Below, one piece after another: positions 57,670 to 61,700 of a stretch of 64,000 nucleotides of DNA. Where the stretch lies: positions 62,001-126,000 of the forward strand of contig PLMN01000011.1 of assembly GCA_003141555.1 (NCBI GenBank). Reading direction: 5' to 3'. The notes beneath the pieces were generated by a model. The model ran no database searches, was not told the DNA's origin, and was given only the letters and a program-made list of their open reading frames with translations. The translations under genes and the position numbers were made by a program. Position 1 is the stretch's first letter, and each line of letters opens with the position of its first letter. Source of the stretch: Candidatus Aminicenantota bacterium. Its GTDB lineage: Bacteria; Acidobacteriota; Aminicenantia; Aminicenantales; UBA4085.

Positions 57670-59016
57670 ATGAAGCTCCTCAAAATCGGTATCTCGGGCG
57701 TGCGGGGCATCGTCGGCGAATCGATCACCCCCAAGCTCGTCATGGACTTCGCCGCGGCGTTCGGGACCTACGTCAACGGCCGGACCGTCCTCGTAGGGCG
57801 CGATACCCGGGTCTCGGGCCCGCTCCTCCACTCCGCCTGCACGGCCGCCCTCCTGTCCACGGGCTGCGACGTCCATGATCTCGGCATCTGTCCCACCCCG
57901 ATCCTCCAGCGCCTGGTCGTGAAGCTCGGGGCGAAGGGCGGGGTGGCGATCACGGCCGGCCACAACGACATCGCCTGGAACGCCCTGACGTTCATCAACC
58001 GCGACGGGACTTATCTCAATCCGTTCCAGGGCGCCGAAGTCCTTGACCTCTATCACCTGGGAAAGTTCAGGAAGGTCGGGACCGACGGCCTGGGCAAGGT
58101 CCGAGAGCTCAGCGGCTATGCGGACGACTATTTCGAATTGCTCCGGACGTTCCTCGACGTCGAGGCGATCGCCCGGGCCAAGCTCCGGGTGGTCGTGGAC
58201 GCCTGCAACGGCGCGGGCTCCGGCTTCCTCGAGCGCATGGCCCGGGCGCTGCGCTTCGAGCTCATCCCGGTCAACACCGAGCCCAACGGCTTCTTCCCCC
58301 ACGATCCCGAGCCGCGGCCGCGGAACGCCCAGCAGGTTGTCTCGATCCTGAAAGTCGTGGCCGCGGATGTCGGCGTGCTGCTGAACAGCGACGTCAGCCG
58401 CATATCGCTCGTCAGCGAGACCGCCGAGAGCCTGTCCGAGGAGTTCACCTTCCCCTTGGTGGCCAGCGAATATCTCAAGACGCATCGCGGGCCGGTTGTA
58501 ACCAACCTCTCGACCTCGCGGATGATCGAGGACGTGGCCAAGGCCCGGGGATGCCCCATCGTCCGGACCAAGGTGGGCCAGTCGTTCGCCGTCCACGCCA
58601 TGCTCCAGGAAGGGGCGGTCCTGGCCGGCGAAGGGAGCGGGGGCGTCGCCTTCGGCGCCTTCCACCCGGCCTTCGACGGGTTCCTGACGATCGGCGTCGT
58701 CCTCGAGACGCTGGCCCGCCAGGGCAAGAAGCTCTCCCGCCTCATCGAGGAGCTCCCCCGCTACCACATCGTCAAGGAGAAGATCTACTGCCCGCCGGCC
58801 CGGATCCACGCCGTGGTGAGCGAGATCAAGAAATTCTTCCGCCGCCACGAGATCGACGCTTCGGACGGCATCCGGGTCGAGGACAAGACGGGCTGGATCC
58901 AGGTCCGGACATCCGGGACGGAGCCCATGATCCGGGTCATCGTCGAGGACGAGTCCAAGGAGCGGGCTCGCGAGCGGGCCGACGAAGTCATCAATTTCAT
59001 AGGCGTGCCGGTCTGA
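57670..59016 (+). CDS. Phosphohexomutase-family pseudoenzyme (catalytic Ser and metal loop lost)
   Basis: A 448-residue protein with the whole alpha-D-phosphohexomutase fold: ISGVRGIVG, GRDTRVSG, sugar loop GEGSGGVAF and phosphate loop VRTSGTEPMIR. The phosphoserine loop reads TAGHND with Gly97 in place of the catalytic Ser of TASHNP. The metal loop reads NSDVSR (239-244) instead of DxDxDR. It therefore cannot work by the known mechanism. The frame is intact and it overlaps the active copy by 1 bp, so it is probably a maintained partner or regulator, not a decaying gene. Confidence 0.85.
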   Translation: MKLLKIGISGVRGIVGESITPKLVMDFAAAFGTYVNGRTVLVGRDTRVSGPLLHSACTAALLSTGCDVHDLGICPTPILQRLVVKLGAKGGVAITAGHNDIAWNALTFINRDGTYLNPFQGAEVLDLYHLGKFRKVGTDGLGKVRELSGYADDYFELLRTFLDVEAIARAKLRVVVDACNGAGSGFLERMARALRFELIPVNTEPNGFFPHDPEPRPRNAQQVVSILKVVAADVGVLLNSDVSRISLVSETAESLSEEFTFPLVASEYLKTHRGPVVTNLSTSRMIEDVAKARGCPIVRTKVGQSFAVHAMLQEGAVLAGEGSGGVAFGAFHPAFDGFLTIGVVLETLARQGKKLSRLIEELPRYHIVKEKIYCPPARIHAVVSEIKKFFRRHEIDASDGIRVEDKTGWIQVRTSGTEPMIRVIVEDESKERARERADEVINFIGVPV

Positions 59017-60389
59017 TGAAGAAAACGTCGTCGCTCAAGATCAGCATCTCCGGGGTGCGGGGCATCATCGGCGACAGCCTGACCCCCCAGCTCGCGGGAG
59101 CCTTCGCCCAGGCGTTCGGCAGCTATGTCGGGGGCGGGCCGGTCATCGTCGGCCGCGACGCGCGCGCGTCCGGGCCCATGCTCGAGCGGGCCGTCATCGC
59201 CGGCCTGCTCGCGGCCGGCTGCCAGCCCGTGGAGGTCGGCATCTGCCCGATCCCGTCGTTCCTCATCCTGACGAAGGAATCGAAGGCCTCGGGCGGCATC
59301 GCCGTCACGGCCAGCCACAATCCCAAGGAATGGAACGGCTTGAAGTTCATCAGCCGGGCCGGCCTGTACCTGACCCCGCTCCAGACCGAGGAATTCCTCG
59401 ACATCTACCACCAGGGCGAGTTCACGTCCGTGGGACCGGAGAGGCTCAAGAGCCTTAAGATCGAGCCGCGGCCGGTCGAGCCCCATCTGAGGAAGCTCCT
59501 TTCCCACTTCGACGTCGAGCTTATCCGTCGGCGGCATTTCAAGGTGACGGTCGACTGCGGCAACGGGGCCGGGATCATGCTCGCCCCTCAGCTCCTCGAC
59601 GCCCTGGGCTGCGAGACGGTGTTCCTCAACGCCGAGCCCGACGGCTCCTTCGTCCATGCCTCGGAGCCCACCCCCGAGGCGATCGCCGAAATCCGCCGAG
59701 TGGTGCCCCGGGTCGGCGCCGCGGTCGGGTTCGTCCAGGATGCGGACGCGGACCGGCTGGCCCTGGTCGACGAGCGCGGCGAAGCTCTCGGCGAGGAGAT
59801 GACCCTGGTCCTGGCCGCGGACTACGTCCTCGGCCGGAGGAAGGGATCGGTCGTGTGCAACCTCTCTACGACCCGGGCTCTGGACGACGTCGCCGCGGCC
59901 CACCAGGCGCCGATCTTCCGGACGAAGATCGGCGAGATCAACGTCGTGGAAAAGCTCCTGGCGGCCGACCCGCCGGCGGTGATCGCCGGGGAAGGCAACG
60001 GCGGGGTCATCCTCCCCGAGATCCATCCCTGCCGCGACAGCTTCGCGGGGATGGGCTTGATCCTGGAGGCGATGGCCTCCTCGGGCAAGACGCTTTCGGA
60101 GCTCCGCGACCTCGTGCCCCGCTACGTCATGATCAAGGACCGGATCGAGGGCTCGGCCGAGCAGGCCCATCGGCTCATCGGCCTCCTGAAAAAAGGCTAC
60201 GAAGGACGGGGGCGGGTGAGCCTCCTCGACGGGCTCAAGGTGGATTTCGAGGACCACTGGATCCATGTCCGGCCCTCGAACACGGAACCGATCATCCGGG
60301 TGATCGCCGAGGCCCGGACCGCCGCGACGGCCAAGGCCGCCCTTCGCCGCCTGAGGGCGCGGATCGCCGATCTGCAAAAGAAGATATGA
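59016..60389 (+). CDS. Phosphoglucosamine/phosphomannomutase-family enzyme
   Basis: This 457-residue protein keeps all active-site loops: TASHNP (Ser100), metal loop DADADR (242-247), GEGNGGVI and VRPSNTEPIIR. It interconverts hexose 1- and 6-phosphates; whether glucosamine (GlmM) or mannose/glucose is used cannot be decided from the sequence alone. Its ATG overlaps the stop of the inactive paralogue. A clear terminator follows. Confidence 0.9.
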   Translation: MKKTSSLKISISGVRGIIGDSLTPQLAGAFAQAFGSYVGGGPVIVGRDARASGPMLERAVIAGLLAAGCQPVEVGICPIPSFLILTKESKASGGIAVTASHNPKEWNGLKFISRAGLYLTPLQTEEFLDIYHQGEFTSVGPERLKSLKIEPRPVEPHLRKLLSHFDVELIRRRHFKVTVDCGNGAGIMLAPQLLDALGCETVFLNAEPDGSFVHASEPTPEAIAEIRRVVPRVGAAVGFVQDADADRLALVDERGEALGEEMTLVLAADYVLGRRKGSVVCNLSTTRALDDVAAAHQAPIFRTKIGEINVVEKLLAADPPAVIAGEGNGGVILPEIHPCRDSFAGMGLILEAMASSGKTLSELRDLVPRYVMIKDRIEGSAEQAHRLIGLLKKGYEGRGRVSLLDGLKVDFEDHWIHVRPSNTEPIIRVIAEARTAATAKAALRRLRARIADLQKKI

Positions 60390-60401
60390 ACACGAGCGTC
60401 G

Positions 60402-60421
60402 ATGCGGGGCGCCGCATTTTT
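60402..60421 (+). terminator. Intrinsic terminator after the phosphohexomutase genes
   Basis: ATGCGG (60402-60407) and CCGCAT (60412-60417) pair around GGCG and are followed by a T-run (60417-60421). Confidence 0.75.
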
Positions 60422-60440
60422 CTCGGGGGCCGGGAAGTTC

Positions 60441-60473
60441 TTATTGCACGATAGGGCGTTATCGTGCAATAAT
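60441..60473. promoter_or_regulatory. Perfect palindromic operator overlapping the fic promoter
   Basis: TTATTGCACGATA (60441-60453) and TATCGTGCAATAA (60460-60472) are perfect 13-bp inverted repeats separated by 6 bp. A plus-strand promoter lies inside: TTGCAC (60444-60449), 18 bp, AATAAT (60468-60473). A protein bound here would block transcription of fic. The Fic protein itself has a C-terminal winged helix that could bind it. Confidence 0.65.
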
Positions 60474-60521: not shown

Positions 60522-61700
60522 ATGAGACGGGGACGAACAGGCCAATATATCCCTATATCCACCATCGAGGAAAGCGTCAAAGCCTTTTTACCGCTTCCCT
60601 TGCCGCCCAAACCGGCCCTTAAAATGGATCCGGGGCTTCAGGAAGCCAATGACTACGCCTTCCATTCCCTGGGAAAGCTCGACAGCGCCTCATCCTTCCT
60701 CCCCGCGACGTCCCTGTTTCTTTATCAGTACATCCGCAAGGAAGCCGTTCTATCGTCTCAAATCGAGGGCACTCAATCGTCGCTCTCCGACCTGTTGCTC
60801 TTCGAGCTCGACAATCTGCCCGGAGTACCTCTCGAAGACGTTACGGAAGTGGCCCATTATGTCGCGGCGCTCGAGCACGGTCTTCGCCGTCTCCGGGAGG
60901 GATTTCCTCTGTCCCTTCGACTGATCAAGGAAATCCACGGCGTTCTTCTCAGGGGCGGGCGGGGAAGCGACAAGACGCCGGGAGAGTTCCGGAGAAGCCA
61001 GAACTGGATCGGCGGCACGCGACCCGGGAACGCTTTCTACGTGCCCCCGCCACCGGGGTTGGTCATCGAATGCATGGGCGCTCTCGAGCTTTTTCTCCAC
61101 GATCATTTCGGAAAATTCAATCCGCTCGTGAAAGCCGCCCTTTTTCATGCTCAGTTCGAAACGATCCATCCGTTCCTCGACGGCAACGGAAGGCTGGGAC
61201 GGCTTTTGATCACTCTCGTCCTCGTCCACGAAGCGATCATGACCGAGCCCATCCTCTATTTGAGCCTTTATTTCAAGAAGCACCGGCAGAAGTATTACGA
61301 GCACTTGCAGCGCGTCCGGACCGAAGGCGATTGGGAAAGCTGGCTCCTGTTCTTCCTGAAGGCCGTCCGAACCACGGCCGACCAAGGCGTGGATACGGCA
61401 AACCGATTGAATCAACTGGCTCAGGGAGATCGCGAGAGGATCAAAGGCCTCGGGAGGATCTCAGGGTCGATGCTTCAGATTCACCACGAACTTCTCTCGA
61501 GGCCGTTGGCTTCGATCCCGTTCCTCGCGGAAAAGACCAAACTCGTCCCCAACACCGTGGCCAAGACCCTGAACGCCCTCAAAGCTCTTGGCCTGGTCAA
61601 GGAAATCACGGGCCGCAGCCGCAACCGGATCTTCGTCTATACGCAATGCCTCGAGATCATGAACGAGGGAACCGAGATCCTCGCGAAAAAGGAACCTTGA
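60522..61700 (+). CDS. Fic-domain protein with C-terminal winged helix
   Basis: A 392-residue Fic protein. The catalytic motif HPFLDGNGRLGR (216-227) is complete, as needed for transfer of AMP from ATP to a hydroxyl group. An N-terminal inhibitory motif SSQIEGT (Glu82) places it in the self-restrained class with the inhibitory helix before the Fic core. The last 70 residues form a winged helix-turn-helix (LVPNTVAKTLNALKALGLV). A GAGGG site precedes the ATG. It is 3 bp upstream of the restriction-modification-like gene and under a palindromic operator, which suggests control of that system. Confidence 0.9.
   Translation: MRRGRTGQYIPISTIEESVKAFLPLPLPPKPALKMDPGLQEANDYAFHSLGKLDSASSFLPATSLFLYQYIRKEAVLSSQIEGTQSSLSDLLLFELDNLPGVPLEDVTEVAHYVAALEHGLRRLREGFPLSLRLIKEIHGVLLRGGRGSDKTPGEFRRSQNWIGGTRPGNAFYVPPPPGLVIECMGALELFLHDHFGKFNPLVKAALFHAQFETIHPFLDGNGRLGRLLITLVLVHEAIMTEPILYLSLYFKKHRQKYYEHLQRVRTEGDWESWLLFFLKAVRTTADQGVDTANRLNQLAQGDRERIKGLGRISGSMLQIHHELLSRPLASIPFLAEKTKLVPNTVAKTLNALKALGLVKEITGRSRNRIFVYTQCLEIMNEGTEILAKKEP

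Follow-up and report, generated by a model that had tools for sequence, protein, structure and literature searches.

A maintained non-catalytic phosphohexomutase paralogue encoded in tandem with an intact archaeal-type GlmM-like mutase in Acidobacteriota and a second bacterial phylum

The tandem locus

The window, that is, the whole stretch of 64,000 nucleotides of Candidatus Aminicenantota bacterium DNA that was analysed, carries two consecutive genes of the phosphohexomutase fold, both on the plus strand and overlapping by one base (TGATG). The features on which the following description is based are listed below.

57670-59016, plus strand: gene 1, non-catalytic phosphohexomutase paralogue of 448 aa (reading frame, Pfam domains, predicted model)
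57958-57960, plus strand: codon Gly97 (GGC), replacing the phosphorylated Ser, in ITAGHND (sequence, alignments)
57988-57990, plus strand: codon Thr107, replacing a conserved Lys (sequence, alignment)
58384-58401, plus strand: NSDVSR, degenerate counterpart of the DxDxDR metal loop of live copies, in LLNSDVSR (sequence, alignments)
59016-60389, plus strand: gene 2, intact archaeal-type GlmM-like mutase of 457 aa (TIGR03990, 485 bits against a cut-off of 439)
59313-59315, plus strand: codon Ser100 (AGC), phosphoserine position of gene 2, in VTASHNP (sequence, alignment)
59739-59756, plus strand: DADADR metal loop of gene 2, in QDADADR (sequence, alignment)
60386-60454, plus strand: short frame whose start codon overlaps the stop codon of gene 2 (ATGA); its end, RIFLGGREVLIAR, matches the C-terminal stretch RVFLGGKEVLFCRP of the NagA encoded after the pair in the nearest relative

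The products of both genes score above the cut-offs for the four Pfam domains of the fold (PF02878, PF02879, PF02880 and PF00408). Gene 2 retains all of its catalytic loops (SHN, DADADR, GEGNGG and RPSNTEP) and, with 485.1 bits against the curated cut-off of 439 for the TIGR03990 family (Arch_GlmM), is a candidate gene for a phosphoglucosamine mutase. In the same family model the gene 1 product, with its catalytic loops lost, reaches 437.7 bits, slightly below the cut-off. The genome of the window has six places encoding domain I of the alpha-D-phosphohexomutase superfamily. A separate bacterial-type GlmM (L004) scores above the TIGR01455 cut-off and, consequently, the tandem pair is not the sole candidate for the GlmM role. 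A further phosphohexomutase of this genome (L005), with the serine loop TASFNPP, falls below every NCBIfam cut-off tried and may be a member of the Slr1334-type subfamily.

Catalytic residues lost and retained in gene 1

In an alignment of 149 homologues, gene 1 lacks the serine, the lysine found ten residues after it and two of the three metal-binding aspartates. In addition, Gln304 stands in place of a glutamate and Phe335 in place of the arginine of HPCRDSF (HPAFDGF in gene 1), and both of the replaced residues are invariant or nearly so in the live copies, as the intact paralogues are called here. The site of Thr107 is equivalent to Lys118 of the P. aeruginosa PMM/PGM enzyme. The sugar loop GEGSGG and the phosphate loop RTSGTEP (RxSxTEP) are retained. 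These substitutions are not due to chance, because the same kinds of change recur in every orthologue of the class.

Comparison of the dead clade with the live one reveals a signature composed of G97, Y154, S243, S256, Q304 and F335, with Y154 and S256 present in 100% of the dead copies. Moreover, the pocket residues D241, R244, H98, R413 and T417 of gene 1 are strongly conserved. The former lysine position is occupied by Thr, Ala, Ser, Asn, Ile, Leu or Val in different dead copies. Such a mixture of drifting and newly fixed positions would be the pattern of a pseudoenzyme with a retained job.

The original prediction had described gene 1 as a full fold in an intact frame, with Gly97 for the phosphorylated serine and NSDVSR for DxDxDR, and gene 2 as carrying Ser100 and DADADR and overlapping its neighbor by one base. 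All these elements are read directly in the sequence, and the four Pfam domains and the 448-aa frame bear out the statement on the fold. Three losses, namely Lys to Thr107, Glu to Gln304 and Arg to Phe335, now come on top of those already noted. The last of them qualifies the further claim that the ligand loops are kept, which holds for the phosphate loop and for the core of the sugar loop and fails for the arginine beside the latter.

Distribution of the pair

Each of the two proteins was used to search a sample of 142 genomes of the class. The live copy occurs in 63 of them, and the remaining 79 have neither copy. The dead copy adjoins the live one throughout the class apart from assembly breaks: in genomes G061 and G089 a contig end comes between the two, and G102 allows no judgement. 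All dead copies of the class have the glycine and, where the region is covered, a metal loop of the form N-S-D-x-S/G-R (once S-S-D), with the serine, the lysine and metal aspartates lost. Pairs are also present in a phylum sample of other Acidobacteriota, where the upstream copies are eroded differently. Some combine Gly with DADGER or DAEGER, others have NxDGDR or NTDVDR together with Ser, and the upstream copy of the L017-L018 pair has both Ser and DxDxDR, with only milder changes. Judging from these residues, the Ser-retaining upstream copies (types S-K-N-D-D and, in L017, S-K-D-D-D) may be partly active.

A second search covered 388 genomes of the phylum that contains a Lentisphaerota hit (G491) and gave matches in 70 of them, mostly as pairs. 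The upstream copies read in this phylum have Gly (Ala in two cases) and have lost Asp and Lys, the exception being one Ser-type pair in G736. Damage to the downstream copies is rare there, L159 being an example. In this last locus (genome G867) the downstream copy also looks damaged, with ASQH, DPDGDS and an altered phosphate loop, so that the pair may have no active member. Three genomes of the second phylum (G497, G579 and G707) have a lone live copy, indicating that the live enzyme need not always have a partner. Lone dead copies were found in none of the searched genomes, contig ends excepted. In G504 and G563 (L152-L156) the dead gene is on one contig and the live gene on another, with their respective residues preserved all the same.

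Considering all loci, the full set of seven positions (Ser, Lys, three Asp, Glu and Arg) is found in 0 of 115 upstream copies and in 96 of 114 downstream ones; nearly all the other downstream copies are partial sequences, and one partial row is a frameshifted piece of an upstream copy. The linkage is tight, as the SGxRG motif of the downstream gene begins at most 54 bases past the upstream stop in 98 of the 107 linked pairs. No natural fusion of the two genes was seen, the long open frames encountered being artefacts of overlapping frames or in-frame genes separated by a single stop. The dead/live pair is common to more than 100 sampled genomes of two phyla and under selection, with the copy counts referring to genomes sampled, not to independent evolutionary events.

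Age and selection

Phylogenetic trees were built without the columns of the catalytic loops. According to SH-aLRT values obtained from quick searches only, all downstream copies group in a single clade (99 in the tree of 88 rows and 91 in that of 110 rows). The upstream copies fall into a large clade (99) and a small Gly/DADGER-type clade (99). A minimum of 2 changes between the dead and the live state is needed on the 110 rows, and the upstream and downstream halves of the tree show largely parallel branching. In other words, upstream and downstream copies are old, separate lineages. The separate clades and their parallel branching imply either that the two genes had duplicated before the sampled Acidobacteriota diverged or that the pair has travelled between lineages as one piece, the data being compatible with both.

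When compared with its nearest relative by the Nei-Gojobori method, gene 1 has a dN/dS of 0.15 (0.069/0.469) and gene 2 of 0.17 (0.088/0.53), and by the same method other pairs of the window's family give similar values for both genes. Accordingly, gene 1 is a pseudoenzyme under purifying selection, which has lost its catalytic residues and kept its fold. The original prediction had favored a function rather than decay and had proposed to look for the same tandem pair in relatives. The pair is found across the class, in other Acidobacteriota and in the second phylum, and this ancient and widespread arrangement, together with the low dN/dS, strongly supports that view. Two signs of recent decay had also been named, that is, relatives retaining the serine and DxDxDR, and a Ka/Ks near 1 for gene 1. 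Ser and DxDxDR are absent from all orthologues of the class and the ratio is about 0.15, so that recent decay of gene 1 is rejected.

Genomic neighborhood and candidate pathway

In the window's family a true NagA gene comes next after the pair: in L009 it scores 305 bits against a cut-off of 225.65 and overlaps gene 2 by four bases, and the same gene follows the pair in L007, L008 and L011. In related lineages the pair is followed by NagB (L014 and L061), and the order NagA-like, dead, live, NagB is observed in L069, L070, L072 and L076-L079. A NagB fused to a GHMP-type sugar kinase lies directly after the pair in L063-L066 (L063:8703-10550, L065:8678-10552), and the Ser-type pairs of Acidobacteriota have, directly upstream, a kinase related to N-acetylhexosamine 1-kinase (4ocj, 4wh1; E about 1e-29). 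Together with an anomeric kinase, a deacetylase and a deaminase, a mutase would make up a coherent pathway leading from GlcNAc to fructose 6-phosphate, which points to an amino-sugar phosphate as the best guess for the substrate of the mutase. Among the loci examined, no single genome has all four route genes side by side.

In the window itself, the short frame at 60386-60454 is probably the remnant of a deleted nagA, of which nothing else is left, and it is followed by a Fic-family gene (60522-61700). No nagA above the cut-off is found in the genome of the window, where nagB is present elsewhere. The pair would hence have outlived its NagA neighbor here.

Beside the pairs of the second phylum, the only amino-sugar gene found is one kinase in G736. 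An amino-sugar role for all loci is unsupported there, the neighbors being tat or omptin genes. In particular, a gene for an omptin-family protease adjoins the pair in 3 loci, and tatA/tatC genes do so in 3-4 loci; these neighbors include L174:8701-9813 and the genes upstream of the pair in L175, L177 and L179.

A live/dead hetero-oligomer as the favored explanation

The AlphaFold model of gene 1 has a pLDDT of 94.2 and a pTM of 0.93, and its nearest folds are 9du5, 1wqa and 2f7l, with a TM of about 0.9. A mixed oligomer of the gene 1 and gene 2 products is plausible, given that 9du5 forms a D2 tetramer (PMC11940775) and that GlmM dimers are held together by domain 1 (PMC8573169). A fused-chain model was computed from a naturally in-frame pair read through its single stop (905 aa; alignment A3, 12 paired rows) and, with a very short linker and so shallow an alignment, gave a pTM of 0.55 and no confident relative placement. 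Another structural match, 2fkm, is PMM/PGM carrying the Ser108Asp mutation, in complex with glucose 1,6-bisphosphate, which shows that a pocket devoid of the serine can hold the bisphosphate.

We propose, with a probability of about 0.62, that gene 1 encodes an ancient, maintained non-catalytic subunit, which joins the gene 2 product, an archaeal-type GlmM-like mutase, in a mixed dimer or tetramer. The latter would carry out the chemistry, most likely the interconversion of GlcN-6-P and GlcN-1-P or of GlcNAc-6-P and GlcNAc-1-P. The dead subunit would keep the fold, most of the sugar- and phosphate-binding frame and probably the oligomer face; it would not be open to phosphorylation and its metal site would be weakened. 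Its role would probably be to stabilise the live subunit, or to tune it in one direction or the other through a bound sugar phosphate or bisphosphate. The dead and live genes show the conserved co-occurrence and linkage of a heteromeric enzyme with a non-catalytic paralogous subunit. The regulatory or heteromeric subunit put forward by the original prediction fits this co-occurrence, the tight linkage, the lack of solo dead copies and the dimers and tetramers formed by relatives, and from these observations we infer the complex itself. On the other hand, co-inheritance alone suffices for the branching common to both genes, and the Ser-retaining upstream copies, the three lone live copies and the different neighbors in the second phylum also count against this proposal. 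A more specific version, which we consider possible though doubtful, is that the unphosphorylatable, metal-poor site of the heteromer holds a hexosamine phosphate or a 1,6-bisphosphate and works as an allosteric or rebinding site. If true, this would represent a control device not known in the superfamily and old enough to be found in two bacterial phyla.

Alternatively, gene 1 might be a free-standing pseudoenzyme, sensing or binding a sugar phosphate on behalf of a partner other than the gene 2 protein, in the way that GlmM inhibits the cyclase CdaA. Binding and inhibition of other enzymes is indeed documented for GlmM proteins (PMC8573169), and the conserved phosphate loop, the residues Y154 and S256 fixed in the dead clade and the few unlinked pairs would be in line with this idea. 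It is nevertheless unlikely, as no dead copy lacking its live companion turned up other than at contig ends, the dead gene is mostly coupled to the live one within a few bases and the loci of the two phyla have no further conserved gene in common. Distinctly unlikely is also that gene 1 became a different enzyme with no need of the phosphoserine, for example one for a phosphatase or isomerase step of the same pathway. The strong conservation of pocket residues and the new clade-specific ones would suit such an enzyme, but the nucleophile, two metal aspartates, the lysine base and the pocket Glu and Arg have mostly given way to small or neutral residues, and the former lysine position drifts freely, which suggests the loss of the catalytic site and not its rebuilding. 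That gene 1 retains a slow mutase or bisphosphate turnover in spite of the missing serine is very improbable. In favor of it, the erosion is graded, with some upstream copies of other Acidobacteriota retaining Ser and part of the metal loop; against it, every copy in the window's class is devoid of Ser, Lys and metal Asp residues. Finally, a decaying duplicate, to which the loss of several catalytic residues and the frameshift or stop of the upstream copy in a few assemblies (G087, G044) could be ascribed, can be dismissed in view of the low dN/dS, the frames intact in over 100 genomes and the existence of one old lineage common to two phyla.

Meaning and comparison with known systems

Phosphohexomutases are textbook single-gene enzymes. 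A bacterial, operon-coupled and ancient dead phosphohexomutase partner has no description in the open-access literature searched, in which searches for inactive or pseudo phosphohexomutases of bacteria returned only PGM5 and general papers. Kept in two phyla, a dead partner of the live/dead hetero-oligomer would mean an additional level of control where the metabolism of amino sugars and cell-wall precursors begins. In addition, the nearly intact, partly eroded and fully dead upstream copies offer a natural series to study the passage from a homomer to a live/dead heteromer. Automatic annotation is likely to call the dead genes mutases.

The nearest solved relatives of both products are the archaeal-type phosphoglucosamine/phosphogluco-/phosphomannomutases of TIGR03990 (P. 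horikoshii 1wqa and T. kodakarensis 9du5), which have the same fold and length. Known members of this family are homomers with full catalytic loops, whereas here a dead paralogue is co-encoded. Dead paralogous subunits as such are of a known kind, represented by GMPPA, GlgD and HisZ. The eukaryotic GMPPA/GMPPB pair has a nucleotidyltransferase fold, unrelated to that of gene 1. In bacteria, GlgD/GlgC ADP-glucose pyrophosphorylase and HisZ/HisGS ATP phosphoribosyltransferase include a non-catalytic paralogous subunit, with folds and reactions other than those of genes 1 and 2. A regulatory paralogue is mentioned in PMC10795190. The likeness to GMPPA is that this non-catalytic paralogue has a sugar nucleotide as its ligand and regulates the live GMPPB (PMC11228364). 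PGM5, or aciculin, is likewise an inactive phosphohexomutase paralogue, with substrate binding intact (PMC7761743); unlike gene 1, it is an animal muscle protein of independent origin, which keeps the serine and most of the metal loop and has no operon partner. Lastly, the Slr1334-type glucose-1,6-bisphosphate synthase also represents a regulatory side branch of the superfamily in bacteria (PMC9426568). This enzyme, however, is active and makes an activator, while for gene 1 the role proposed is that of a partner subunit.
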